IMG/VR virus record: IMGVR_UViG_3300025010_000053
Coordinates: 1-64,000 of that record
Length of the DNA stretch: 64,000 bases
Source of the DNA: a virus
Direction: 5' to 3' (one strand)
The notes under the pieces were generated by a model. That model was not told the DNA's origin and did no database searches. It worked only from the letters and a program-made list of their open reading frames with translations. The position numbers and the translations under genes are program-made. Below, in pieces: positions 17,455-39,205 of the stretch (its first letter is position 1; every line of letters starts with the position of its first letter).

Positions 17455-18093
17455 ATGAAAATGACAGCAACTGAATTAATCAAAAAATACAACATCACGC
17501 TACACATTGAAGGTCAAATCAGGGTTCCGAACGCAAAGAAGCTTTCTCAGAAAACACGCGACATGCTCGTAGCAGCAAAGCCGGAAATCATTGCAGAATT
17601 GCAACGTCGGGAACAGGAGAAGGCTGAACTAAAAGCCAGGGAACTGGCGGAGAAAGAAGCAGAGAAACAGGCTATCCTTGCTGGAGAAAAAGCCATCCAC
17701 CTGAAATATCATGACGGCGAGCATCTGAGTGGTCACTTTGCTACTGGGCAGGCAGCAGAGGTTCTAATGGGTTTAGGGATTGCAAATTATGTTAGCGGTT
17801 GGGGTTGTCATGTAGACCTTAAAGCCGTTGAAGCACTGGGCGAAGAGTTCACCTACCCGCAGGCCGCTTTATATGCAAGTCCGATGATTGAGGCAAAAAC
17901 AGAGGCTATTCGGAAGAAATACGCTGAACGTCAAGAGAAATTTGACCAAGCTAGAGAAACTGGTAAGCCCGTATTGTTGAGTAGTTGGAGTGCCCCATGC
18001 TGTGACCCACGGGAAGAATGCTCCTGGGATAACCATTATGAGCACGCAATGCCAGACGGTAGAGTAAAGAAATCCTGGAACCACACCTGGTAG
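17455..18093 (+). CDS. TubC_N-like domain protein
   Basis: 212 residues from ATG 17455 (AAAGGGG upstream). Residues ~3-48 resemble the TubC_N docking fold: 'ELIKKYNITLHIEGQIRVPNAKKLS' followed by 'LVAAKPEIIAELQ'. Residues 50-80 are charged coiled coil. The rest ('GHFATGQAAEVLMGLGIANYV', 'CCDPREECSWDNHYEH') is unrecognised. TubC_N-like starts are common in phage and plasmid proteins of unknown role. The gene is preceded by a CCGGG/CCCGG hairpin. Confidence 0.65.
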   Translation: MKMTATELIKKYNITLHIEGQIRVPNAKKLSQKTRDMLVAAKPEIIAELQRREQEKAELKARELAEKEAEKQAILAGEKAIHLKYHDGEHLSGHFATGQAAEVLMGLGIANYVSGWGCHVDLKAVEALGEEFTYPQAALYASPMIEAKTEAIRKKYAERQEKFDQARETGKPVLLSSWSAPCCDPREECSWDNHYEHAMPDGRVKKSWNHTW

Positions 18094-18104
18094 AACGCAA
18101 AAAA

Positions 18105-18132
18105 GTTAGGTCGGGCGGGTTGCCTGGCCTAA
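18105..18132 (+). repeat. Repeated intercistronic hairpin, copy 1 (identical to 29805-29832)
   Basis: 28 identical bases occur here and at 29805-29832. TTAGGTC pairs with GGCCTAA and an inner GGC with GCC. Both copies lie directly upstream of a small-gene RBS. Probably an mRNA stability or attenuation element. Confidence 0.85.
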
Positions 18133-18161
18133 TCTAAAATAAATATATAGGAGGAATAGAA

Positions 18162-18647
18162 ATGTTAACAGCGCAAATCAGTCAAGATTGGCAGAAAAAA
18201 ATGGTCATAGATGCCATTTTAAAAGAATACCCAAAAGCTACAGGATTCCAGTTTTCCTGTGGATTTAATCGTACAGAATGGAATGACAGTCCAAACCTGT
18301 CGCCCTACTTCCATTGTGATTTCATCGAGGAAACCAGCGCATACCAGGCATATGTCCACAAGGACGGTATTGATTTCAACTATCAGGGAGAATTATGCCA
18401 AGAATATCAGGTATCCGGACAGTTTTACTTTCTTACGAAGGAACTTACCTTTCAAGAAATGCTTGTTAATGTAGTCAAAGTCCACGCTGTCGCAGGGTAC
18501 AACGATGGAGGCCACATCCGCCTGATCCATTGGAATATCACGTGTCAGGAGGACTGGAAGCGTTTGAAAAAGCAGTGCCCGAACAGTGAGAAACGCTTGA
18601 TTTTCTACTACCCGGACGGCAAAACAGCAGCAGAGTCGGTCTTTTAG
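18162..18647 (+). CDS. Hypothetical early protein
   Basis: 161 residues from ATG 18162 behind TAGGAGGAATA. Mixed alpha/beta with several cysteines, no signal peptide or membrane segment. Motifs such as 'YQAYVHKDGIDFNYQGELCQEY' and 'GYNDGGHIRLIHWNI' do not point to a family I know. Located immediately before the Csx3-like gene, so a host-interaction role is a reasonable guess only. Confidence 0.65.
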   Translation: MLTAQISQDWQKKMVIDAILKEYPKATGFQFSCGFNRTEWNDSPNLSPYFHCDFIEETSAYQAYVHKDGIDFNYQGELCQEYQVSGQFYFLTKELTFQEMLVNVVKVHAVAGYNDGGHIRLIHWNITCQEDWKRLKKQCPNSEKRLIFYYPDGKTAAESVF

Positions 18648-18711
18648 TTTTCCCAGGCTTGGGGTTAGCCGAAAAAGCCCTGCCAGGAAAAAATAAAAAG
18701 GAGGAATAGTT

Positions 18712-19443
18712 ATGAAATTAAGCGTAAACGACGCTGACGGAACTGCTGTTGTCGCAGTACTGAAGTTGAACGGACAACCTGCTGTAGAGAAAATCGACTA
18801 CATCAATTGGGAAGGACAATACCACAAGAACGGAAAGTGGAGCTATACCGAAGGTGGCGTTTCCCTGTGTGATGGCATTGTCTTAATTAAGCATATGTCT
18901 ACTCACAGCAGTGCCAACAATCTGCGCTATGCCCACATTGTCGCGGATAATGTGGAGGAGGACAGCATATTTGTCATGGGCGTAGTCTCGGAGCAAGACG
19001 AATACCCAAAAATGCCTGCCGGTTTTACTCTTGGATACCATGTCTGGGATGCTATCGTGGAAGGGTTTTTGAACATCCCGAATCCCACAGACAGATTTAA
19101 ACAGAGCGTTGCCGATGCCCGAGCACGCTGGGAACTTGCAGAGCAATTCAATCCCACCAGGCCGATTACAGTAGAAGGTCCCGTATTTTGGAGTATTGGC
19201 GTAGATGGCCCCTGTACACCATCAGATCCGTTGCCAGTCATGCCGGAAATTCCCCGCGGATCCCTGTTGGTCATCGGTGGACGGGCACCTATTTGGAGGT
19301 ATGGCTTAGCCCTACATCAAGCGCACGGATCCGCTGCCGGTGCTGCAGCCACCTTTGATCCAAAGATTGGGGCGGTGGTAGTAGCAACACACAACGCCAA
19401 TTGGAAGGAGAGGCAGATTGTCGCTGTGGACTGGCCGTTTTAG
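18712..19443 (+). CDS. csx3: Csx3-like ring nuclease (candidate type III anti-CRISPR)
   Basis: 243 residues from ATG 18712 (AAAGGAGG upstream). The C-terminal ~65 residues match the CRISPR-associated Csx3 family closely: 'LLVIGGRAPIWRYGLALH' (183-202), His202/His205, 'FDPKIGAVVVATH' with Asp216 and His227. In characterised Csx3 (Crn3), these His/Asp positions hold manganese and the protein degrades the cyclic tetra-adenylate that activates type III CRISPR effectors. Residues 1-150 are an extra N-terminal region I do not recognise. No cas genes are nearby, so in a phage this most likely serves to switch off CRISPR signalling (inference). Confidence 0.85.
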   Translation: MKLSVNDADGTAVVAVLKLNGQPAVEKIDYINWEGQYHKNGKWSYTEGGVSLCDGIVLIKHMSTHSSANNLRYAHIVADNVEEDSIFVMGVVSEQDEYPKMPAGFTLGYHVWDAIVEGFLNIPNPTDRFKQSVADARARWELAEQFNPTRPITVEGPVFWSIGVDGPCTPSDPLPVMPEIPRGSLLVIGGRAPIWRYGLALHQAHGSAAGAAATFDPKIGAVVVATHNANWKERQIVAVDWPF

Positions 19444-19474
19444 TCCGCAAGATTAAGCTAAGGAGGTGATACAT

Positions 19475-19660
19475 ATGATTAATCTAGATATTAAACCCAC
19501 AGAAGAACAATTGGCAAAAGTTCCCGAAACCAAAAAAGCGCTGAATGCTCTTTATGTGGCAATTGAAGCTGAGTTTCCAGTTGGTAGAGAAAAGTCACTT
19601 ATTTTTACCAACCTGGATGTGGCAATATTATGGATTCGTGAGGCCATTATGAAACTTTAG
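19475..19660 (+). CDS. Acb2/Tad1-like hairpin protein (candidate cyclic-nucleotide sponge)
   Basis: 61 residues; ATG 19475 lies eight bases after AAGGAGGTGAT. The C-terminal part 'GREKSLIFTNLDVAILWIREAI' (residues 37-58) follows the hallmark of phage Acb2 and Tad1-type hairpin proteins, where 'sREKSLalT.LeeA..WanaAI' is conserved. Acb2 forms hexamers that bind cyclic di- and trinucleotides and thereby blocks CBASS; Tad1 relatives bind Thoeris signals. It starts 32 bases after the Csx3-like gene. Ligand cannot be inferred from sequence. Confidence 0.75.
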   Translation: MINLDIKPTEEQLAKVPETKKALNALYVAIEAEFPVGREKSLIFTNLDVAILWIREAIMKL

Positions 19661-19726
19661 TCTACTATCTCTGCCCGTTTAGATACGGGCGGGGGTGGTG
19701 GGATTGAAAATAGGGGAGGGGTAATT

Positions 19727-20584
19727 ATGAATTTTGATGAATTATGTGTCAGGGTATTCGCTGGTTTTGAAGCCGGAGAAGTCCACTACTACATCAACGA
19801 ATGCTTCAGAGAAAGAGGATTTGGGAGAGATAGTGTTGAACAGATCCTCAAAAATTACGGTTTTGAGTTCAACTTGGATGATACAGATGTATATGAAAAA
19901 ATTTGTGAAGTTTCAAAAGGATTGTTCGTTGAGTTGGCACCCTTTGAAGAGCTTCGCAAAAAGGTGTATGAAGGATATCGAACAGGTAAAGTACACCACT
20001 ATTTTACTAATTCTTTCGGTCATTATTACTCCAAAAAAACCGTCATAAGCCACTTAAACCGCTATGGCATTCCTGTCGATTTGGACGCTCAGGATGCTTA
20101 CGAGCAGATTTTAAAACTGTCCATACCGTTGTTTTTGGAGTCAAAAGGGCTCCACTTAGGCAAGAATACTTTCAAGCTTGATGACGGAAAGTATCTCGTT
20201 AACGACGGCGGCAAGTACAGGCCCAATCTGTCTCTAATTTTCACTGAGGACAGGTTGTTAAAAGCATTTGATTATGCAGCCGATACCGAACTTCAAGGCA
20301 GTCTTAATGTCTCTTTTTCTGGCAACATGGGGTTTAAGTTTGGTCGTTTCTTTAAGAGCAAGAAAGGCACTAACTGCTTTGAGGAAATGGATCGCGATAA
20401 AGCCCCGCATATGCTCATCAAAATAAATTGGGGCGGTGCTTTTGATAGTTCGCGTGGGTTTAGAAGTTGGCCCGAAGGAAGTCTATACCGTCGCGTTGCC
20501 AAATCAAATGGCGGCGGAGCTGGCAATGACTACCTTGTACTGCCGATTAATTTTAAGCAGACCTTAAGGTTTGGGGATATTTAA
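19727..20584 (+). CDS. Hypothetical protein with internal duplication
   Basis: 285 residues from ATG 19727 behind AGGGGAGGGG. Residues ~2-70 and ~77-145 are two diverged copies of one unit: 'FDELCVRVFAGFEAGEVHYYIN' versus 'FEELRKKVYEGYRTGKVHHYFT', each ending in 'D..DvYE.I...s..LF.E'. The C-terminal ~130 residues, rich in Gly and aromatic residues ('NVSFSGNMGFKFGRFF'), form a separate domain. No family recognised. Position next to the Csx3 and Acb2-like genes makes it a candidate host-interaction protein. Confidence 0.65.
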   Translation: MNFDELCVRVFAGFEAGEVHYYINECFRERGFGRDSVEQILKNYGFEFNLDDTDVYEKICEVSKGLFVELAPFEELRKKVYEGYRTGKVHHYFTNSFGHYYSKKTVISHLNRYGIPVDLDAQDAYEQILKLSIPLFLESKGLHLGKNTFKLDDGKYLVNDGGKYRPNLSLIFTEDRLLKAFDYAADTELQGSLNVSFSGNMGFKFGRFFKSKKGTNCFEEMDRDKAPHMLIKINWGGAFDSSRGFRSWPEGSLYRRVAKSNGGGAGNDYLVLPINFKQTLRFGDI

Positions 20585-20611
20585 TCTTAGAGTTCGTTGG
20601 AGGTGTCAAGC

Positions 20612-21748
20612 ATGGCCCAATACAACGTTACCCGTGCTTGCGGGCATGAGGAAACAGTTAACCTTATTGGTAAGCACAAACTACGGGAGTGGCGACTGGA
20701 GAACGTCGAACCAAACAAGTTATGCCACACCTGTTACCATGCGGAACTTGAACGCCAGCGTGAAAAGGCCACCGCCGAAGCTATCGAGGCAGCGAAAGAA
20801 ATGGAGTTGCCAGCACTCGATGGAACTGAAAAACAAGTGGCCTGGGCAGAGCGAATACGCCAGGAGATATTGCTCCGGGCAGAAGGATTCCTGCATGGAA
20901 ATATCACCGATGAGCAACGCGCTGATCTAATGACCGGACTTGACCACCTACAACAGATCGAGTCAGCGAGTTGGTGGATTGACCGCCGTGATATGTCATT
21001 GCGGATGCTTGAAACTCTACTGCTCAACACTGCCAAACAGCAGAAGGATAAGCCGCCACAGGTGCTTACCGACGCTGTTAAAATAGAGGCGACTGTCAGG
21101 CCTGAAAACACCGTCACCGAAACTGTAGCGGAAATCCGAGCACTTGAAAAAAGCATGGAAATATATTTTCCCGAGAAGCGCGACGACTTTCGGGAAATTG
21201 TAAAGGAAAAATTGAGTATGGATTGGACCGGGCTGTGCTGGAGAAGAAAAATAGCGAAGCACAACGGCACTCCGGCAGATCGTGCATCTGAGGCAGGGCA
21301 CAGACTGCTTGCTGCTGGGTTCCCTGTTAGAATCTTTGACGATGAGACACGGCAGAAGGCCATCGACGGCACATATGAGCCAGAGCATACCCGCTGGATT
21401 ATGTGCCGCACTACAGGCGGTTATGCTGGTCACCTAGTGGTACGGTGGAGCAAGAAAGAAGACTTCTACCGTGCTGCAAAGGGTATTAACGGTAGTCGAT
21501 ATGACAAACCCGATGTTGTGGTTCCCCCCGAGCATTTTGCCGAGGTACTGGACTTCGCACAAATGTATGACTTTAGGATCTCGTCAGGTGCGCAGAAGGC
21601 AATAGATTTAGCACGGCAGGCATGGGAGAGCATACTTACCGTAATTGTCGCGCCGCCAGCGGAAAAAGATTGCGTGGTTGCCATCGGCAAGCCTCCCGTC
21701 TTGGAGGTTCCTATTGATATGAATATTGCAGATGAATTTAGGGATTAG
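20612..21748 (+). CDS. Hypothetical protein with N-terminal zinc motif
   Basis: 378 residues from ATG 20612 (TGGAGGTG upstream; the longer GTG frame has no RBS). The first ~45 residues hold a likely zinc site 'ACGHEE ... CHTCYHAE'. Then comes a long charged helix. The C-terminal part ('SRYDKPDVVVPPEHFAEVLDFAQMY') reads as an alpha/beta domain. I do not recognise the family, although proteins with this zinc opening occur in other Gram-positive mobile elements. It precedes the SNF2 helicase and may be a partner. Confidence 0.65.
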   Translation: MAQYNVTRACGHEETVNLIGKHKLREWRLENVEPNKLCHTCYHAELERQREKATAEAIEAAKEMELPALDGTEKQVAWAERIRQEILLRAEGFLHGNITDEQRADLMTGLDHLQQIESASWWIDRRDMSLRMLETLLLNTAKQQKDKPPQVLTDAVKIEATVRPENTVTETVAEIRALEKSMEIYFPEKRDDFREIVKEKLSMDWTGLCWRRKIAKHNGTPADRASEAGHRLLAAGFPVRIFDDETRQKAIDGTYEPEHTRWIMCRTTGGYAGHLVVRWSKKEDFYRAAKGINGSRYDKPDVVVPPEHFAEVLDFAQMYDFRISSGAQKAIDLARQAWESILTVIVAPPAEKDCVVAIGKPPVLEVPIDMNIADEFRD

Positions 21749-21760
21749 GAGGGGTAAGTC

Positions 21761-21961
21761 ATGCTCATAAAAGAAGACGGCGGACTTTATGACGCGCACG
21801 AAGAGTGCAATTTAGCTAAAACCTGCGATAAATACAAAACCGTCGGTAAATTTAGCGGTTGTCAGAACATCGGAAGAATAGGAGTCACCTGCTTTTGCTT
21901 AATTAGACCAGATCACCCTCGTATCAAACTTGATCTGGTCTATGTTAAGTGTGAATCTTAG
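21761..21961 (+). CDS. Small Cys-rich protein
   Basis: 66 residues from ATG 21761 with AGGAGGGG upstream. Six cysteines ('EECNLAKTCDKY', 'SGCQN', 'VTCFC', 'KCES') suggest metal binding. Its 3' end carries an 11-bp inverted repeat and overlaps the start of the SNF2 helicase gene by 20 bases, so translation of the two is probably coupled. Confidence 0.65.
   Translation: MLIKEDGGLYDAHEECNLAKTCDKYKTVGKFSGCQNIGRIGVTCFCLIRPDHPRIKLDLVYVKCES
21905..21941 (+). promoter_or_regulatory. Perfect 11-bp inverted repeat at the helicase start
   Basis: AGACCAGATCA and TGATCTGGTCT are exact reverse complements with a 15-base loop. The hairpin ends immediately before ATG 21942, where no Shine-Dalgarno sequence is visible. 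It could gate translation of the helicase or serve as a protein-binding operator. Confidence 0.6.
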
Positions 21962-23366
21962 AACCGAACTGTTGCCGCACCAAGTACCTGCTGTTGAGAA
22001 AGTGCTGCCGTCTCGTATTGGCGGTCTATTCTGCGACATGGGTACTGGCAAAACGCGCATGTCAATTGAACTGGTTGACCGACGCAAAACCAAAATTGAC
22101 AAGGTAATCTGGTTTTGCCCGGTTAGCCTAAAGGAAACGGTCAGACAGGAGATACTCAAGCATACTGACTGTATAGACAGTGACATTTGCGTATTTGGAG
22201 ACAGGACAAATGAGAGCAACGTCCCAAGCGTGCCTTGGTATGTTGTAGGGATTGAGTCAATGAGTAGCAGTACCCGCGTGGTCTTGACTGTAAATAAGCT
22301 TATTACCGAGAGTACGATGGTTATCTTGGACGAATCGTCATACATCAAGGGTCACCGCTCAATGCGGACGTTGCGGATTACGGAATTATGCAAACGCGCA
22401 CGGTACCGACTCATCTTAACCGGTACTCCGCTGTCTCAGGGAGTAGTTGATCTATTTGCGCAAATGCGTTTTTTATCTCCCAAGATTTTGGGTTACGAGT
22501 CGTTTTACTCTTTCGCGGCGAATCACCTGGAGTATTCGGAAAAGTATCCGGGCATGATTGTTCGTGCTCACAATGTTGAGTACCTGGCCGCGAAAATAAA
22601 ACCTTACATTTACCAGGTTACTAAGGAGGAATGCCTTGATCTTCCGTCGAAACTTTACGAAACTAGGTATTTCAGTATGAGTTACGAACAGCGGCAGCAT
22701 TATGAGTGGGCAAAGGAGGAAATCCTTGCCGATCTCCTGGAGGACGATGACGATTCTATTCCGATCTTTAGACTGTTCACTGCTCTGCAGGGTATCGTCT
22801 GCGGGTTTTGGAATCGGAGGATTAGTCGGGGTCATTATCAGAAAATGAGGTTTGAGCATGACCGGGTGAGCACCTTACTCGAAACGATCTATAGCGTACC
22901 GCGTGACACAAGATTTATTATTTGGGCAAAATATACATATGACATCCAACAGATCGCCGATATGCTGCAGGCCAATTTTGCCGACCAGGGGTTTAGTTTG
23001 TATCATGGTGGGTTATCAGAAAAGCAACGTAACGCCGAAGAAGCTAGATTTCATGCCGGAAATAGATTCTTTGTTGGTACCGCCAAGACCGGCGGGCATG
23101 GACTAACCTTAAATGAGGCACATTATACTATTTTCTATAATAACTCGTTTAAATACAGCGAACGACTGCAGTCGGAAGATCGGAATCACCGGATTGGCCA
23201 GACCAATAAGGTAACCTATATTGATATTCGCTGTTCGAACAGTATTGACGAAAGAATCGCTGAAAACTTAGCCCAAAAGGGCAATACTGTAAATAGTTTC
23301 CGGAGGGAGGTTGAAAAGGTCAAATATAAAAAAGACCGTCTAAAGGAGTTGATTATGTCGCTGTGA
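21942..23366 (+). CDS. SNF2-family (superfamily 2) helicase
   Basis: 474 residues from ATG 21942; TTG 21930 is also possible. Motif I 'DMGTGKTRMS', motif II 'ILDESSYIKG' (DEAH variant DESS), motif III 'LILTGTPLSQG', motif V 'KTGGHGLTLNEAHY', motif VI 'QSEDRNHRIGQ'. The 'SEDRNHRIGQ' signature places it in the SNF2 group, with the short single-subunit form common in phages. Likely role: translocation on DNA during replication or recombination. Its 3' end overlaps the DUF3440 gene by four bases. Confidence 0.88.
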   Translation: MLSVNLRTELLPHQVPAVEKVLPSRIGGLFCDMGTGKTRMSIELVDRRKTKIDKVIWFCPVSLKETVRQEILKHTDCIDSDICVFGDRTNESNVPSVPWYVVGIESMSSSTRVVLTVNKLITESTMVILDESSYIKGHRSMRTLRITELCKRARYRLILTGTPLSQGVVDLFAQMRFLSPKILGYESFYSFAANHLEYSEKYPGMIVRAHNVEYLAAKIKPYIYQVTKEECLDLPSKLYETRYFSMSYEQRQHYEWAKEEILADLLEDDDDSIPIFRLFTALQGIVCGFWNRRISRGHYQKMRFEHDRVSTLLETIYSVPRDTRFIIWAKYTYDIQQIADMLQANFADQGFSLYHGGLSEKQRNAEEARFHAGNRFFVGTAKTGGHGLTLNEAHYTIFYNNSFKYSERLQSEDRNHRIGQTNKVTYIDIRCSNSIDERIAENLAQKGNTVNSFRREVEKVKYKKDRLKELIMSL

Positions 23367-24658
23367 GTAAGAAAAAGTATCTCAAAAAGAACGTGTATGA
23401 AGCAGCACTGGAACGCGTCAAAACTATTTTCGAAGAGTTCGAAAAGGTGTATGTTTCCTTTTCCGGCGGCAAGGACAGCGGGGTTGTTTTGAACCTTGTC
23501 CTTGATTATATGCGTAAAAACGGGATAACGAATAAAATCGGGGTTCTTGTTGTTGATCTGGAAGGTCAGTATCAAGAAACCATAAATTACATACATACCA
23601 TGCTTACGGACAATGCTGACTTGATAGAACCATACTGGGCATGCTTGCCGCTAAATCTGCGCAATGCTGTGTCAGTCTATCAGCCGTTCTGGTGTTGCTG
23701 GGAGCCAGGACTAGAAGATAGATGGATTAGGCAATTTCCTGACTATCCGGTTATAAAAGATCAGGAATTCTTTCCGTTCTATCAGTACAGAATGGAATTT
23801 GAAGAATTCGTTCCGAAGTTCGGCAAGTGGTTTTCTGGTGGAGAAAAGACTGCTTGCCTGGTAGGCATACGTTCCGATGAAAGCCTTAACCGATTCAGAA
23901 CAATTGTAAGCGACAGTAAAGAGACTTATAGCGGCATAAACTGGACAACGAAGATAGACGAGAATCTTTACAATTGCTATCCAATTTACGATTGGCGAAC
24001 TGAAGATATTTGGACCGCCAATGGTAAAAACGGGTGGGAATATAACAAACTCTATGATCTGTTTTACAAGGCCGGTGTCGGCATCCACGATATGCGGATT
24101 TGCCAGCCCTATGGTGATGACCAACGGATCGGGCTGAATCTGTTCCGGGTTATCGAACCCGAGACATGGGCCAGGGTAGTTAATCGTGTATCCGGGGCAA
24201 ACTTTGGTAATATTTATTGTGGTACTAAGGCATTAGGGTATCGTCAGGTACAGCTACCGGCCGGGCATACGTGGAAAAGCTACACAAAGCTTTTACTTGC
24301 ATCACTTCCACCCGAAACCAGGGAGAACTATGTTAGCCGGTTTATCCGTTTTATGAGATATTGGAATAGAAACGGGTGTGGGTTGCCAAGTGAATGCTTT
24401 AGCAAACTGCCCCCTTCCGCTGTTGTAACGGATAAGATAGCTACCAGAGGGAATAAGGATAAACGTGTCGTTAGGTACAGGAAAATAGAAGATAGCCTTG
24501 ACGGCGATATTGAAAGCAAACACTATGCTCCTACTTGGCGTAGGATGGCCATGTGCATCCTTAAAAATGACCACCTGTGCAAAGGATTGTCGTTTGCCCA
24601 AATCAAGAACCAGGCAGAGCGGCAACGACAGCTGATAGAAAAGTACCGAAATTTGTAG
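23363..24658 (+). CDS. IbrA-like PAPS-reductase-family protein (DUF3440)
   Basis: 431 residues from GTG 23363, overlapping the helicase stop. The PP-loop 'VSFSGGKDSGVVLNL' (residues ~31-45) binds ATP or PAPS. Downstream 'CCWEPGLEDRWIRQ', 'WFSGGEKTACLVGIRSDESLNRF' and 'YDWRTEDIWTANGKNGW' are hallmarks of DUF3440, the IbrA family. Together with the ParB-like gene at 25071 it forms the conserved IbrA-IbrB pair described in E. coli as regulators; the biochemical reaction is not established. Confidence 0.85.
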   Translation: MSKKKYLKKNVYEAALERVKTIFEEFEKVYVSFSGGKDSGVVLNLVLDYMRKNGITNKIGVLVVDLEGQYQETINYIHTMLTDNADLIEPYWACLPLNLRNAVSVYQPFWCCWEPGLEDRWIRQFPDYPVIKDQEFFPFYQYRMEFEEFVPKFGKWFSGGEKTACLVGIRSDESLNRFRTIVSDSKETYSGINWTTKIDENLYNCYPIYDWRTEDIWTANGKNGWEYNKLYDLFYKAGVGIHDMRICQPYGDDQRIGLNLFRVIEPETWARVVNRVSGANFGNIYCGTKALGYRQVQLPAGHTWKSYTKLLLASLPPETRENYVSRFIRFMRYWNRNGCGLPSECFSKLPPSAVVTDKIATRGNKDKRVVRYRKIEDSLDGDIESKHYAPTWRRMAMCILKNDHLCKGLSFAQIKNQAERQRQLIEKYRNL

Positions 24659-24670
24659 GGGGTACCGTCC

Positions 24671-25084
24671 ATGAAGATAATTAGACTAACAAACCAGGAC
24701 AAAAGCTTTTACTCCACACTGGGGCCGTTTCTGGCCCGTCGTGACGTTGAGCGCGAAATTGGCTACAAGATATACGACGATGACGGAAAAGTGTGGATTA
24801 CTGCTCTTGAATTAAAAAAGGTCGTGGGGTTTTGTTATCTTTGGGAGAAAACAAAAGCACATTATCAGATCGGTAGTTGCTATGTCGTTGAAAAGTACCG
24901 GCAACAAGGTGTTTTTCGCCAGCTATTTAACAGTGCAATTAAGGATATTAAAGGCGTTGTTACTATGACAACGAAGAATAAATATTTAATGGAAATGATA
25001 GCTGATGAAGGTTTTATGGAGAGTAAGAAGAGAGGTAGCTTTACTGAGTATGCAAAGGAGTATGGTTCAAATGAAAGCGTTTAA
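24671..25084 (+). CDS. GNAT-fold acetyltransferase-like protein
   Basis: 137 residues from ATG 24671 (GGGGGTACC upstream). Residues ~68-95 contain the GNAT motif A region: 'IGSCYVVEKYRQQGVFRQLFNSAI', in the pattern Q/R-x-x-G-x-G/A loosened to 'RQQGVF'. It lies between IbrA- and IbrB-like genes and overlaps the latter by 14 bases. It could acetylate a protein, or, like phage Mu Mom, a DNA base; the sequence alone does not decide. Confidence 0.65.
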   Translation: MKIIRLTNQDKSFYSTLGPFLARRDVEREIGYKIYDDDGKVWITALELKKVVGFCYLWEKTKAHYQIGSCYVVEKYRQQGVFRQLFNSAIKDIKGVVTMTTKNKYLMEMIADEGFMESKKRGSFTEYAKEYGSNESV

Positions 25085-25580
25085 GAGCCCAGTTTACAAT
25101 GTTATTGCCGTGCCAATTAAAAATATTAGGGCAAATGCTTGGAATCCTAATGCCGTAGCTCCACCCGAAATGAAACTTCTTTATGACTCAATTAAAGAAG
25201 ATGGCTATACAATGCCAATAGTTTGTTACTTTAATCCGTCTGATGATACATATGAGATTGTTGACGGGTTTCACCGCTACAGCGTTATGTTGAAACATAA
25301 GGATATTTATGATCGCGAGAATGGCTGTTTGCCTGTATCTGTGATCGATAAACCAATCAGTGATAGGATGGCTTCAACAATACGCCACAACCGCGCTAGG
25401 GGTACGCATAACATTGACTTGATGAGCAATATCGTGGCCGAGCTTGTTGAAATGGGCAAATCTGATTCCTGGATTGCTAAGCATTTGGGAATGGACGTTG
25501 ATGAGTTGCTGCGACTTAAACAAATTACCGGTCTAGTTGCGCTTTTCAGGAGCCGGGAATACTCAAAATCATGGATATAG
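25071..25580 (+). CDS. IbrB-like ParB/Srx-fold protein
   Basis: 169 residues from ATG 25071, behind AAAGGAG and inside the end of the GNAT gene. 'IKNIRANAWNPNAVAPPEMKLLYDSIKEDGYTMPIV' (in part) and 'YEIVDGFHRYSVM' form the ParB N-terminal domain, with the 'DGFHR' loop that binds nucleotide in ParB/sulfiredoxin folds. 'DSWIAKHLGMDVDELLRLKQI' is the helix-turn-helix. Pairing with a DUF3440 protein defines the IbrB type. Followed by two hairpins and the tyrosine recombinase. Confidence 0.82.
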   Translation: MKAFKSPVYNVIAVPIKNIRANAWNPNAVAPPEMKLLYDSIKEDGYTMPIVCYFNPSDDTYEIVDGFHRYSVMLKHKDIYDRENGCLPVSVIDKPISDRMASTIRHNRARGTHNIDLMSNIVAELVEMGKSDSWIAKHLGMDVDELLRLKQITGLVALFRSREYSKSWI

Positions 25581-25721: not shown

Positions 25722-26660
25722 ATGGATCTAGAGAAATCCATACAGGAATTATTCGTGTATCTCGAAAGTCAAGGGTACTCCGTCCATAGCTTGGAATGGT
25801 ATGGCGTTGCGCTCAGACAATTCAAAAAGTTTCTGAACGATGCAGGGATACATACTATTGAAGAAATCACCCAGCAAGTCATATATGATTACCTGCTCTA
25901 TCTGCGTAACCGTCCGAAAATGGACGGCAAGCCAGGAAAGCTAAGTATTTCAGCTATAAATAACGCAATTAAAGCGATTAAGGGTTTGTTTAGGTATCTA
26001 TGTGAAGTGATTGAAACTTTACCGGACAACCCGACTAGAAAGTTAAAATACCTCAAGGCAAGACATGCAGTCATAAATAGTTATACAGAAGAGCAGATAC
26101 GTGCAATTTTGTCTTATATTCCTCAGAAAAATTTTGCTGGACAACGAAATAGTATGCTTATTCAACTGCTCGTTGACACTGGCCTACGTATATCCGAGGC
26201 TTTAAGTATTTGTGTTAGCAATATAAATTTCACTAAGTCATTAATACGGGTAGTTGGCAAAGGGAACAAAGAGCGTTTAGTTCCCTTTGGTGAAAATTCA
26301 AAGAAGCTATTGGAGCAATGGATTGTTATTCAGTCCCTAAGTGAAACGAGCAAGATATTTTTTGCTAAAGGTTCGGATAGTATTTCAACCGCTGCAATTA
26401 GAAACGCTTTTAGAAAGTACGGAGTTTTAGCAGGGTTAAAGGTAACGTTTAGGCCGCATATTTGCCGTCACACTTTTGCTCTTATGTTTTTACGCAACGG
26501 TGGGCAGGTGTTTGTTTTGCAGAAAATAATGGGCCATTCGACGCTTGATATGACTAGGCGTTACGTGAATATGCTTACCGAAGATATCCAGGAAGAGCAT
26601 CGGAGATGTGGCCCTGGAGACAAGCTGTTTAGCAACAAAGACGACGATAACCAGGAATAA
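25722..26660 (+). CDS. Tyrosine recombinase (XerC/D-like integrase)
   Basis: 312 residues from ATG 25722 with AAGGAGGG upstream. N-terminal SAM-like core-binding domain (residues 1-105). Catalytic set visible: Arg in 'DTGLRISEAL', Lys in 'VGKGNKERLVPF', His/Arg in 'HICRHTFA', His in 'MGHSTLDM', Tyr in 'TRRYVNM'. Length and pattern match Xer-type enzymes. It may integrate the phage, resolve multimers or invert DNA. The phage also carries a large serine recombinase, so roles are probably divided. Confidence 0.9.
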   Translation: MDLEKSIQELFVYLESQGYSVHSLEWYGVALRQFKKFLNDAGIHTIEEITQQVIYDYLLYLRNRPKMDGKPGKLSISAINNAIKAIKGLFRYLCEVIETLPDNPTRKLKYLKARHAVINSYTEEQIRAILSYIPQKNFAGQRNSMLIQLLVDTGLRISEALSICVSNINFTKSLIRVVGKGNKERLVPFGENSKKLLEQWIVIQSLSETSKIFFAKGSDSISTAAIRNAFRKYGVLAGLKVTFRPHICRHTFALMFLRNGGQVFVLQKIMGHSTLDMTRRYVNMLTEDIQEEHRRCGPGDKLFSNKDDDNQE

Positions 26661-27042: not shown

Positions 27043-27095
27043 CTCAGCTAGTTATAATATTGCTGGTGGAATCCACTAAAAAGAAGGAGCAAACC

Positions 27096-28499
27096 ATGAA
27101 TAAAGCCGTCCATGCTATTACCTGTTTAGAGCGCAGGTGCAAGAAGTGTAAAATATACATATCAGTCAGGGTGCAGGATTATGGCGTGCAGACAACTTGG
27201 GAGGACTTAGACGCTCAATTAGACAAAAGTCTATATCAGATCATTAAGGTTCGTTGCCCAAAATGCGGGATCGAAGAATGGCCGGAATTTACGACAATGT
27301 ACAATATAGCGAACGGAGCAAAGGAACAAATCATTAAGACCAAGCTTGGCAGCGAGGATATGCCGGTTATAGGTGGCACGGATACGCCTTATGCTATCAC
27401 CCATAGCTTGGAGGAAGAGGCTGAGTATAATCGCGGCCTGGCTAAAACTAAGGAATGTTATCGCGAAAAATCAGAAGAATTTTGGACTGGTTACTGTAGC
27501 TTTGCCTTGGAGAAGTGGTCAAGCCTCATGAAAGATTTGACCGACAAGGAGTTTGAAGTCGCCTACCTGGAACTTGGTTTTCCGGCACCTTTGAACTATG
27601 GTGCCATCAGTGTGGCAGCATGGCGTAAGGACGCGGAGAGGCGAATTGTCACCGATGAACAAAAGTTAGCCTTTTGGCGAGCGTCCAACTTATACATTAT
27701 AGAAGAGGAATTCGTTTGGGCACCAATCGGGCAGTGGCCCATGGAGGAATGGATCCGCTCATATGGTCGGGAGCGGGTAACTTACCTTACTTTAAATATA
27801 CCGCTGCCGGAAGAGTTGGAGTCTTGGAGAACCAAAGCCTTAGCGAAGGTGATAAAAAAGAAAACAGGAGAAACCGGTGTACTTTTCGAGCGGATCGGTC
27901 AACTTGGGCGCGATCTGGACAAGCAGCGCAACCGGTCGATGGAGCTAGGACGGCAACTGCAGCAGGAGAGGCAGGATAGTGCCACATTAAACGATCAAGT
28001 GTCGAAACTTAAGCAGGAGAATGCACGCTTAAAAAATAGGCCTGCAGAGGTTATTCGGGATCCGAACGATACAAGGAAAATTAAATCCCTAAAAGGGCTA
28101 GTTGCAGAAATGCGGGCTGAGGTGGAGAGGCTTGCCGGGTTGCTTCCGGCTGAAGTTATAATCCAAGAACCAGATGATATAATAGAAGAAACTAAAATTG
28201 AAGTCCAGGAACCCGCCATTGATCTGAGCGGCAAGACAGTCCTGATCGTTGGTTGGCCGAGGGAAACGATTGGAGCTGAGTGCCTGGTTATATGGCATGA
28301 CGGGGATTTAGTGGACGCAAAGCTCCAGACCCTGACCACGGAGGCAGATATATTCGTTGTGCTGACCCGCTTTATAAGCCATCAGGCTATGTGGTGGCTG
28401 AAAGCGGAAGCGGCCATGCAAGATAAGCCGATCGTGTTTGTCAAGGAAACCAATGTCGATCGGATTTTAGGCATTATTAAATCAAGTCTAGCCAGGTGA
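27096..28499 (+). CDS. Coiled-coil protein with C-terminal DUF2325-like domain
   Basis: 467 residues from ATG 27096 (AGAAGGAGC upstream); TTATAAT at ~27052 may be its -10. N-terminal zinc site 'CKKCKIY ... CPKCGIEEW', middle part unrecognised, coiled coil at ~270-345 ('LGRQLQQERQDSATLNDQVSKL'). The last ~90 residues, starting 'KTVLIVGWPRETIGAECLVIW', follow DUF2325 (a Rossmann-like domain, here with 'IFVVLTRFISHQAMWWLKAEA'). Function of that family is unknown. A strong terminator overlaps the stop codon. Confidence 0.72.
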   Translation: MNKAVHAITCLERRCKKCKIYISVRVQDYGVQTTWEDLDAQLDKSLYQIIKVRCPKCGIEEWPEFTTMYNIANGAKEQIIKTKLGSEDMPVIGGTDTPYAITHSLEEEAEYNRGLAKTKECYREKSEEFWTGYCSFALEKWSSLMKDLTDKEFEVAYLELGFPAPLNYGAISVAAWRKDAERRIVTDEQKLAFWRASNLYIIEEEFVWAPIGQWPMEEWIRSYGRERVTYLTLNIPLPEELESWRTKALAKVIKKKTGETGVLFERIGQLGRDLDKQRNRSMELGRQLQQERQDSATLNDQVSKLKQENARLKNRPAEVIRDPNDTRKIKSLKGLVAEMRAEVERLAGLLPAEVIIQEPDDIIEETKIEVQEPAIDLSGKTVLIVGWPRETIGAECLVIWHDGDLVDAKLQTLTTEADIFVVLTRFISHQAMWWLKAEAAMQDKPIVFVKETNVDRILGIIKSSLAR

Positions 28500-29794: not shown

Positions 29795-29804
29795 TCAAAA
29801 AAAG

Positions 29805-29832
29805 GTTAGGTCGGGCGGGTTGCCTGGCCTAA
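29805..29832 (+). repeat. Repeated intercistronic hairpin, copy 2
   Basis: Exact 28-base copy of 18105-18132, here between the 29435 gene and the RBS of the 29860 gene. Confidence 0.85.
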
Positions 29833-29859
29833 CGAAAAAATAATTTAGGGGGAATTCTA

Positions 29860-32020: not shown

Positions 32021-32130
32021 ATTACCTTCGGTAGGCTCTATTTTTATTGGAATAGTGGACAAGCAATAAGACATAAAATTGTAACACATATTAAACAGAA
32101 CGGTTTAACATTTTGAAAGGTGGTTATCGA

Positions 32131-32703
32131 ATGATCATAAAAATCAACGGCAAACCATTAAATTATAGACAGTCAGCAGAAAAACCAGTTAAAAACGAAG
32201 CTTTTACATGGCAGACCAAAGTTAAAAAATCAACCAATATCCAAGTCAGACCCGAATCATCCCCGGTAGCAGTTACCAAACCACAACCAAAAACCGAAAC
32301 TTTGCGCGACAGACTGGCCCGCATTCGTGAGGCTGCCAAGCGCCACATACTACCTTTGACTACAGGCATAAACCTCCTGGCTACTGCTCCAATCTCAGCC
32401 ATGACAGGGCAGTACAGCGTAGCAAATCAGGCAGTACCAGTCGCAAATACGGCCTACATCGGCATTGCTCCGGCATTGCAGCCCGTTATCTCGATGTTGC
32501 AGGAGTTAGCTTTACCTGTCGGTATCGGCATGGCTATTTGGGGATTAATTGAAATTATAATCGGCAATCCCGGAGGCAAGGACAAAATCAAGTATGCCAT
32601 GCTTGGTTACATCGGGGTGTTTATTATCCCATTTTTCTTCTACCAGATCAAGGGGGCGCTCAGCGTTATGCCTCTCGCTATGGGACTGCTGGGGGTGGCG
32701 TAA
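32131..32703 (+). CDS. VirB2/TrbC-like membrane protein
   Basis: 190 residues from ATG 32131 (AAAGGTGG upstream). The N-terminal ~65 residues are soluble and basic. Three hydrophobic stretches follow: ~78-95, ~128-146 ('LALPVGIGMAIWGLIEIIIG') and ~158-176 ('YAMLGYIGVFIIPFFFYQI'). The paired C-terminal helices around 'GNPGGKDKIKY' resemble TrbC/VirB2 pilins and their Gram-positive counterparts. A small membrane protein and a conjugation-type ATPase follow. No relaxase or other T4SS parts are visible. Confidence 0.55.
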   Translation: MIIKINGKPLNYRQSAEKPVKNEAFTWQTKVKKSTNIQVRPESSPVAVTKPQPKTETLRDRLARIREAAKRHILPLTTGINLLATAPISAMTGQYSVANQAVPVANTAYIGIAPALQPVISMLQELALPVGIGMAIWGLIEIIIGNPGGKDKIKYAMLGYIGVFIIPFFFYQIKGALSVMPLAMGLLGVA

Positions 32704-37604: not shown

Positions 37605-37679
37605 CGGGATGTAGCTCAGCTTGGCTAGAGCGCACGGTTCGGGACCGTGAGGTCGCATGTTCGAATCATGTCATCCCGA
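37605..37679 (+). tRNA. tRNA-Pro (anticodon CGG)
   Basis: 75 nt with all arms: acceptor CGGGATG/CATCCCG, D-arm GCTC..GAGC, anticodon arm CACGG-TTCGGGA-CCGTG, T-arm GCATG-TTCGAAT-CATGT, discriminator A. CCA is not encoded. Anticodon CGG reads CCG proline codons. Phage tRNAs commonly supplement host codon supply or replace cleaved host tRNAs. Confidence 0.92.
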
Positions 37680-37687
37680 CTCATTAG

Positions 37688-37722
37688 AAAAGCCCTCCTG
37701 GTTAAAGGAGGGCTTTTCTTTT
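37688..37722. terminator. Bidirectional terminator, tRNA / serine recombinase
   Basis: AAAAGCCCTCC and GGAGGGCTTTT form a perfect 11-bp stem with an 8-base loop, T-rich on both strands. Confidence 0.92.
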
Positions 37723-39205
37723 AAAAGCTCATAGTTGTTTCAGTATTCTTTTGAGGGATTATTTCTATCTTTCTAAAAAATATATCCATTTCAATATAAT
37801 CAGTATATGGCGAAATAGATTTAATAATATCCCTCAGGGACATTTTCCTTTCCTCGAAGGTCATTAGCGTCCAAGCTGTTCTTAAAGCAGATAGCTGTCT
37901 TTGTAGTAGATCTATGTCGGCTGCTTGGGCGGCGAAATGGTTATCTATCTGATCTAACTTTTCTAAATAGTTTACTAACTGACTTTCTTCCTCAAGATAT
38001 TGCTTATTGATTTCCATAAATTGCTCCCGTGGTATAATTTTTTCTTCATAATAATCTTTAAATAAGTCTTTCATGGCAGATCTTATTTTCTTAAGCCTTT
38101 TTTCTTTTTCCATTTTATCTATAATAGGCTTTTCTTCTGCTGCAGCTGTCGCGACTTCTTTTAGCGACTGTTTGGCATCCTCAAAATAGCCTAATGAATC
38201 GCCAAGTGTAAGTACAGTATTAATTATTTCTGTTTCCAAACTATCAGCGTCAAGTATTTTACATTTGCACTCATTAACTCCCATGTTAATCCTGGTATAA
38301 CACATATACCGGCGTATTCGTTTCTTGCCGTTAAATCTAGCTTGGAGATGGCGACCGCAGTAAGGACAAATTAAAAGTCCGGAAAGTAGGTGCTGACTAT
38401 CCCTGCTGCGCGGTGCCATTTCGCTGTTCTTGCTTAAAAGGTGCTGCACCCGATCGAAAATATCCTGAGAAATAATAGGCTGATGCTTGCCGTCCACAAC
38501 CTCACCGGCGTATTCTATTTTACCGATGTAAACAGAGTTCCTAAGTATATATCGAATTGTTGTAGGAGCCCACCATTTGCCGTCAGAGGGGGCTTGTACA
38601 GCATTCTGATATAAAAGGTTACGAATGCGATTTGCCCCCGGATTTGAGGCGTATTCTTCGAACATAAGCAGTACCCATTTTGCGTTGTCGTTTGGTACTA
38701 ATAGTTTTTGTTCATCGTCCCAGTCGTAGCCATATGCTTTCTGACCACCATTCCAGGATCCCCGCCTGGCGTTTTGAATCATGTTATCACGAACACGCTC
38801 GGAAATCATTTCTGATTCAAACTGGGCAAAGTCGATAAGGATATTTCTGAGCAGGCGGCCAGTGGGGGAGCCAGTGTCAATGCTCTGGCTGATAGATATT
38901 AGACTGCAATTATTTTTCTCCAAGATTTCTACGTAGTGGTGGAAGTCCCTGACGTTTCGGGCAAAGCGATCAAGGCGGTAGACTAAGACAACATCATATT
39001 TACCGCCCTTTACGTCTTCGATTAGTTGCTGAAAGCCTATTCTTTTAGTTGCGGATCGGCCTGATATGTCCAAGTCCTCATAGACTTTCACGATGTCGAT
39101 GGAGGATAGACTTGCTTGTAGTTGCGCCTTTTCCATTTGCGTTTCCGGACTTACTCCGTCATCCTTTAGGTGGGAAACCCTAATATAAACTGCTCCGCGC
39201 TTCAT
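37721..39205 (-). CDS. Large serine recombinase (phage integrase)
   Basis: 494 residues from ATG 39205 (GAGGTG upstream). Resolvase domain with nucleophile Ser in 'AVYIRVS' (residue 11) and 'VYRLDRFARNVRDF', 'GRLLRNILIDFAQFESEMISERV'. Then the recombinase domain ('RRGSWNGGQKAYGYDWD', 'LRNSVYIGKIEY'), the zinc ribbon 'CPYCGRHLQ ... MCYTRINMGVNECKC', and a coiled coil at ~330-420. Complete size for an integrase that joins attP and attB. It heads the lysogeny block. Confidence 0.93.
   Translation of the reverse strand: MKRGAVYIRVSHLKDDGVSPETQMEKAQLQASLSSIDIVKVYEDLDISGRSATKRIGFQQLIEDVKGGKYDVVLVYRLDRFARNVRDFHHYVEILEKNNCSLISISQSIDTGSPTGRLLRNILIDFAQFESEMISERVRDNMIQNARRGSWNGGQKAYGYDWDDEQKLLVPNDNAKWVLLMFEEYASNPGANRIRNLLYQNAVQAPSDGKWWAPTTIRYILRNSVYIGKIEYAGEVVDGKHQPIISQDIFDRVQHLLSKNSEMAPRSRDSQHLLSGLLICPYCGRHLQARFNGKKRIRRYMCYTRINMGVNECKCKILDADSLETEIINTVLTLGDSLGYFEDAKQSLKEVATAAAEEKPIIDKMEKEKRLKKIRSAMKDLFKDYYEEKIIPREQFMEINKQYLEEESQLVNYLEKLDQIDNHFAAQAADIDLLQRQLSALRTAWTLMTFEERKMSLRDIIKSISPYTDYIEMDIFFRKIEIIPQKNTETTMSF

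Follow-up and report, generated by a model that had tools for sequence, protein, structure and literature searches.

The closest described relatives of the protein analyzed here are the CRISPR-associated Csx3 (Crn3) ring nucleases, for which cleavage of cyclic tetra-adenylate (cA4) has been documented in the accessible text of Athukoralage et al. 2020 (eLife, PMC7371418). According to that text, Arg71 of AfCsx3 contacts the scissile phosphate, is termed absolutely conserved, and when replaced (R71A) leaves an enzyme of strongly lowered activity. With a Methanosarcina Csx3, E. coli lost part of its cA4-based immunity, and the in vivo effect of cellular Csx3 was smaller than that of the viral protein AcrIII-1 (PMC7371418, same portion). 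Viruses and phages are represented among published ring nucleases by AcrIII-1 (DUF1874, Crn2), AcrIII-2 (a viral SAVED protein), Crn4b, Csx16, and Csx20, as given in the abstracts and sections available, where Crn3 is not named among the phage proteins. The initial annotation of this DNA, which took AcrIII-1 to be the known viral ring nuclease and Csx3 to be a second solution, is therefore outdated on this point, and a phage Csx3 acting as a ring nuclease would be a further solution, not the second. Among 28,114 phage genomes surveyed, AcrIII-1 occurred in 36, Csx20 in 4, and Csx16 in 2, and the accessible part of that text does not name Crn3 (PMC12409355). No published report of a phage-encoded Csx3 was found among titles and abstract openings, subscription journals lying mostly outside the search. 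A different mode of interference is represented by Acb2 and Tad1, which bind cyclic di- and trinucleotides according to the available part of a review (PMC12043709). Csx3 in phages, its fusion to a further region, and a sponge-like neighboring gene appear new within what was searchable.

The window, by which we mean the whole 64-kb stretch of DNA that was analyzed, is part of a 70.5-kb virus record in IMG/VR. The record is that of a temperate tailed phage. The features on which the analysis is based are as follows:

18105..18133, plus strand, intergenic hairpin before the upstream gene (18090-18165 folds at -19.2 kcal/mol; energy alone)
18162..18647, plus strand, upstream gene, 161 aa, with a ribosome-binding site of the csx3 type
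18712..19443, plus strand, csx3-fusion gene, 243 aa (open reading frame, strong Shine-Dalgarno sequence, Csx3 matches)
18712..19155, plus strand, N-terminal region of the fusion, residues 1-148 (weak models: short strands, then helices at 109-120 and 127-145)
19171..19440, plus strand, Csx3 domain of the fusion, residues 154-243 (PF09620, AlphaFold2 model, VIA, residue table)
19475..19660, plus strand, Acb2/Tad1-hairpin-like gene, 61 aa, with its own Shine-Dalgarno sequence, 31 bp after the csx3 stop
19656..19708, plus strand, strong hairpin after the Acb2-like gene (19655-19730 folds at -32.8 kcal/mol; energy alone)
37605..37680, plus strand, tRNA-Pro (ARAGORN)
37721..39205, minus strand, large serine integrase (phrog_95, 1.3e-122)

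The open reading frame at 18712-19443 stood at the coordinates first assigned to it and is preceded by a strong ribosome-binding site (ggaggaatag-tt-ATG). Its predicted product carries a clear C-terminal Csx3 domain, as initially annotated, with matches well above chance to Pfam PF09620 (52.3 bits, E 5.2e-14; gathering score 21), to the PADLOC Csx3 model (2.3e-18), and by sequence to the PDB chains of AfCsx3 (1.8e-5). The NCBIfam equivalog TIGR02579 gave 45.4 bits against a cut-off of 55.4. The proposed HMM comparison with Csx3/Crn3 was thus positive for PF09620 and negative for TIGR02579; we accordingly file the product as a Csx3-domain protein (PF09620) and not as a Crn3 equivalog, and it could for the same reason be overlooked in annotation. 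The PADLOC CARF_HEPN_CSX3 model matched weakly (E 0.033), and no PHROG family matched the 243-aa protein.

Structure prediction, also suggested as a check, returned the AfCsx3 fold. In an AlphaFold2 model of the full 243-aa protein built from 48 sequences, pLDDT was 95-97 over residues 161-243. VIA-align 2 placed this predicted model on 6yud_D, a chain of AfCsx3 (AF_1864) in complex with cA4, with a Z of 11.8 and an rmsd of 1.8 A over 85 residues, and the 13 best rows of a Foldseek search of the PDB were all AfCsx3 (E 2.0e-5). The domain model further showed a likeness to one domain of Cat1, an effector in its cA4-bound form (VIA Z 8.2). A search of a viral fold library gave nothing at E 0.001 or better, and inspection by eye around residue 150 found no ATG with a ribosome-binding site from which a Csx3-only product could start.

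The description of the domain as having the complete Csx3 pattern was right for its motifs and wrong for one residue. GRAPIW, the two His, FDP-(K)-IGAVVV, and TH are all present. Residues were mapped to AfCsx3 by hand from the sequence alignment, with the numbering of Athukoralage et al. 2020 (PMC7371418), and those of the His/Asp metal site are kept (H57=H202, H60=H205, D69=D216, and H80=H227, AfCsx3 first), whereas the equivalent of Arg71 is Lys218. Among 48 relatives, the equivalents of H57, H60, and D69 are invariant (48/48) and that of H80 is found in 47/48; the R71 position is Arg in 46/48 and Lys in two, both from genome contigs. Judged from the alignment, the active site would be nearly, yet not fully, canonical. 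The protein thus shares with Crn3/Csx3 (AfCsx3, 6yud) its C-terminal sequence, predicted fold, and His57/His60/Asp69/His80, and differs in being phage-borne with no Cas10 match in its record, in its 148-aa fusion, in the Lys at Arg71, and in scoring below the equivalog cut-off. Another phage Csx3 (contig L007, 9995-10270) has Trp in place of the conserved cA4-contacting Arg46.

The N-terminal 148 residues are, by the searches made, an orphan region, in line with the roughly 150 unrecognized residues of the initial annotation. They matched nothing in Pfam up to E 1 and nothing in the PDB better than E 1. Scans of IMG/VR yielded a single relative, the identical protein of a sister phage (contig L001), and when genome contigs were scanned for patterns of the whole protein, no relative was confirmed. 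In the full-length model, pLDDT was 30-55 over residues 1-110 and 62-80 over 111-160; folded alone, the region reached a mean of 39.7, a model too poor for a structure search. VIA hinted at a Tad1-like helical pair (Z 4.2, for 47 residues in a weak model), which profile comparison did not support (hhalign probability 0.07), the control, a profile of the Acb2-like neighbor against Tad1, giving 90.5; a likeness to Acb2 was not supported either (profile probability 0.10). Some phage and plasmid Crn4 proteins also bear N-terminal extensions without assigned function, according to the available part of PMC12830947; Crn4b of phages and plasmids, as described there, belongs to another family, and the extension in the window is about 148 aa long.

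The gene that follows csx3, absent from the initial annotation, provides the strongest hint on function. Its 61-aa product matched PF24729 (Acb2/Tad1 hairpin) at E 3.4e-5 and 24.4 bits, short of the gathering score of 27, and is for this reason called Acb2-like only. Two distant phage relatives (tblastn E 0.02 and 0.3) pass PF24729 with 59.5 and 95.7 bits and have in common with it the signature REKSL..T.L..A..W. The single sequence retrieved no PDB chain, whereas a profile of the three sequences matched 9ptq, 'Acb2 homolog 43' (5.6e-5), Tad1 (0.0025 and above; hhalign probability 90.5, the control value given above), and T4 Vs.4 (0.083); this profile contains two stronger family members, so that its matches do not test the window sequence independently. 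Compared with the Acb2/Tad1 sponges, the protein is short and by itself below the Pfam cut-off, and it belongs to a profile that matches 9ptq. From its sequence we regard it as a candidate cyclic-nucleotide sponge. In the stretches examined around other csx3 loci there was no Acb2-like neighbor, and the window is the single case.

Distribution of gene functions along the window places csx3 outside the early genes. Genes for the tape measure and the baseplate are found at 0-5 kb, putative lysis-type genes, assigned from the list of open reading frames, at 13-15 kb, a tyrosine integrase at 25722-26660, and SbcC-like, helicase, replication, recombination, and methylase genes at about 45-62 kb. 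The serine integrase, a nuclease, and a repressor-like gene occupy the minus strand at 37.7-41.9 kb. Since csx3 sits between the lysis-type genes and the integrases, it belongs to an accessory region and not to the early replication genes, and its earlier placement in a phage early operon does not agree with this layout. The tRNA-Pro and serine integrase (37605..39205) form the right border of this region, likely its attachment side. Two types of integrase, tyrosine and serine, occur in the one phage record, with the tRNA-Pro beside the serine one. The statement that no cas gene is nearby agreed with our searches: the Cmr2-type Cas10 model matched nothing in the 70.5-kb record, and a simple scan found no CRISPR-like array in the window.

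The upstream gene (18162..18647) had no Pfam match, and the best of its PHROG matches reached no more than E 0.21. A 27-nt region at its start recurs before csx3 with 81% identity. A hairpin-forming repeat of 49 nt is found twice (18099-18147 and 29799-29847, 86% identical), each time before an accessory gene, and is possibly a shared regulatory element. Numbers of predicted promoters (15; 10.6 expected) and terminators (3; 5.7 expected) were uninformative.

Another IMG/VR contig, L001, matches the window letter for letter at about 18.0-25.5 kb (~7.5 kb), and the seven genes compared from 18162 to 24658 had zero differences. On the left side the two contigs are strongly diverged at 13-17.5 kb and return to 96-100% identity at 11.5-12.9 kb; on the right side, identity is 71-96% at 25.5-27.4 kb. 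This pattern of identity suggests that the common block was probably exchanged recently between phages. As the block is identical in L001, selection on csx3 is not measurable there. For the window at 35-59 kb there was no near DNA match among phages, and one large early gene gave no protein match. Best rows for three other window proteins were mostly Bacillota phages, the matching records spanning other phyla too.

Queries of IMG/VR with the window and Pyramidobacter sequences identified csx3 in seven contigs besides the window (L001, L006, L007, L008, L010, L005, and L012), and a final profile scan recovered the same seven with none added. Csx3 is thereby present in five viral lineages besides that of the window, and a further copy is broken (L012, 1891-2090, with a TAG stop or frame break). 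GpA-type terminases are encoded by L006 and L007, and phage-type nucleotide/DNA-metabolism and recombination genes by L008, L010, and L012. Matches to phrog_2, which we take to be the terminase large subunit, were found in two of the nine viral and plasmid records, several of which are fragments; the Cmr2-type Cas10 model matched in 0/9. Most other phage csx3 frames are short (88-126 aa). The longest, of 180 aa in L007, has a possible inner start that would give 92 aa and thus possibly an 88-aa extension of its own. The Csx3 domains of L006, L007, L008, and L010 and of the Pyramidobacter prophages L003 and L043 are about 48-62% identical to that of the window and likewise come without a Cas10 match, but these proteins have no match to its N-terminal region, nor an Acb2-like neighbor in the stretches examined. 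In 50,697 GenBank phage records, a set that may lack records close to the window, tblastn with the full window protein, its Csx3 domain, and the Pyramidobacter protein found no csx3.

Cellular csx3 was found at 53 genome loci, mostly of Planctomycetota, Methanothrix, and kin, in a set collected with phage-derived patterns that left out more distant cellular Csx3. A Cmr2-like ORF was present in the fetched stretch at 24 of the 53 and at none of the viral loci, as counted with one seed and with many stretches cut by contig ends. Among the 31 genomes behind 32 of the 53 loci, 28 had a Cas10 match with the Cmr2-type model (25 above cut-off), and the three without one included the genome to which phage contig L035 is assigned. 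Two of the 53 loci were counted as phage (L035, which equals phage contig L007 in length and has an identical protein, and the prophage L043). The alignment and tree used 42 of the remaining 51; nine that were broken, short, cut, or near-duplicate were left out (L023, L032, L044, L045, L050, L060, L063, L064, and L065), as was the broken viral copy L012, and longer ORFs were trimmed at the N-terminus before they were aligned. In the resulting tree (95 columns; 3/46 inner branches starred), the window, L006, and L008 formed one supported group (99/97), with L008 on a long branch, and the other phage copies were unresolved except for the Pyramidobacter pair. The tree needs three changes for the seven phage Csx3 rows, and a single clade of these rows was not rejected (AU p 0.455). 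At the three loci L017, L015, and L028, all with a Cmr2-like ORF, Csx3 stands at the end of proteins of ~500 aa.

The prophages of Pyramidobacter allowed phage csx3 to be viewed together with host CRISPR genes. The L005 protein recurs in genome contig L043 of Pyramidobacter sp. C12-8, which identifies L005 as a prophage. Pyramidobacter sp. YE332 has an 18-kb record that is listed as a plasmid (L003, NZ_CP133039.1) but matches chromosomal sequence of genome G087 along 12.9 kb with 99.5% identity and is therefore most likely a prophage copy; G087 would be the YE332 genome, judging from a second contig in which csx3 has an identical position. In these prophages (L003 and L005/L043), csx3 comes after a LexA-type repressor and HTH genes. 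Strain C12-8 has one Csx3, that of the prophage, and on another contig encodes Cmr1, Cas10, Cmr3, Cmr4, and Cmr6 (type III-B) along with two CARF proteins (PADLOC CARF-HD and CARF-RelE) and a 24-repeat array. The Pyramidobacter Cas10/Cmr2 frame is broken after GGDD (L066, 8264-9650), with the same frame pattern in G087, which may reflect either decay or recoding. None of the 23 spacers of the C12-8 array matched its own prophage, the longest stretch being 17 nt with one mismatch. In the stretch seen of the second Pyramidobacter genome, all four spacers equal spacers of the first, so that the two hosts count about once. Among 149 genomes of the order to which Pyramidobacter belongs, csx3 was present in three and a Cas10 match in 34 (23 above cut-off). 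All three csx3 genomes have a Cas10 match, that of G065 being below cut-off. Coming from two related hosts, the Pyramidobacter evidence amounts to weak support.

Judged from its sequence, the window protein most likely acts in the manner of viral ring nucleases or else traps cA4. We consider it probable that the csx3 fusion is a phage counter-defense protein that removes cA4 and is thus a candidate type III anti-CRISPR. This reading is the best supported because the domain and fold are the right ones, the His/Asp residues are kept, the record has no Cas10 match, the neighbor is Acb2-like, and csx3 occurs in other phages. The protein, if expressed during infection, would bind cA4, presumably its ligand, between stacked dimers of the Csx3 domain and, Lys218 notwithstanding, cut it with the help of a metal. 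Crn3 enzymes cleave cA4 with Mn2+ in head-to-tail tetramers. As cA4 is the messenger made by activated Cas10 of a type III CRISPR system, its removal would prevent host effectors that respond to cA4 from being switched on. The orphan N-terminal region probably contributes something further, be it a partner, a location, or a second ligand, and the Acb2-like neighbor may mop up other cyclic nucleotides (cA3, cGAMP), so that the two genes might act as a small counter-signaling pair against type III CRISPR and CBASS. The proposed role is that of AcrIII-1 and AcrIII-2, namely viral removal of cA4 against type III signaling, whereas these belong to other families and have been tested biochemically, and the role suggested here draws on sequence and a predicted fold. 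Should phage proteins of this kind prove to cleave cA4, CRISPR ring nucleases of yet another entire family would have been turned against their maker.

Among other explanations, one is that the Csx3 domain holds cA4 and hardly cuts it, owing to the Lys at the Arg71 site, and so sequesters the messenger as the Acb2-type neighbor would sequester its ligands. Both the Lys at this catalytic position and the sponge-like nature of the adjacent gene would fit, but the equivalents of D69, H57, H60, and H80 are all kept, and the same Lys in two genome-contig relatives may be tolerated; we regard a pure sponge as unlikely. It is more doubtful that the protein is an effector gated by a host signal, its Csx3 domain sensing cA4 and switching the N-terminal domain, for example as a prophage weapon against rival phages. 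The N-terminus contains no effector family, and the other phage copies, at 88-126 aa, are too short for such a domain, except that of L007 (180 aa). What speaks for gating is the placement of Csx3 at the end of the ~500-aa proteins of L017, L015, and L028, the weak CARF_HEPN_CSX3 match of the window protein (E 0.033), and the resemblance of its domain to that of Cat1 (Z 8.2).

A further explanation is an action on the ends of phage or host RNA instead of on cyclic oligoadenylate. AfCsx3 was reportedly first described as a deadenylation enzyme. It was also crystallized with RNA, as the title of entry 3wzi indicates, whereas the neighboring gene points to nucleotide signals and cA4 cleavage by the family is on record (PMC7371418, accessible text); we think an RNA enzyme quite improbable. 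Least probable in our view is that the gene is a passenger, a captured piece of csx3 under no selection for ring cleavage. The broken viral copy with its TAG stop (L012), the changed Arg71, and the identity of the block in L001, where selection is not measurable, could be so explained, but an open frame with a strong ribosome-binding site, kept His/Asp residues, and a well-predicted domain could hardly, and several phage lineages keep csx3.

A broader form of the cA4-removal reading is possible, and we put it forward tentatively. The two genes may form a cassette in which a fusion ring nuclease with a new nucleotide-binding or targeting N-terminal fold cleaves cA4 and an Acb2-like sponge captures smaller rings, disarming type III CRISPR and CBASS at once; the cassette would travel in an ~8-kb block exchanged between phages, and Csx3 would be a recurrent phage anti-CRISPR family that has gone unlisted. 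The sponge-like neighbor in any case bears on whether phages bundle signal destruction with signal capture.

Further genes of the window gave minor observations. An IbrA-like gene (PAPS reductase/DUF3440) lies at 23363-24658, and a gene at 25005-25580 has a weak ParB_N match (E 0.001) and is possibly IbrB-like; both are found beside an SNF2 helicase and a GNAT acetyltransferase. The product of 32113-32703 weakly matched Maff2 and T4SS pilin-like models (E 0.0014, below cut-off). At 27060-28499, a 479-aa protein has a DUF2325-like end (31.6 bits; cut-off 33.6) and a middle part that weakly matches several coiled-coil families.
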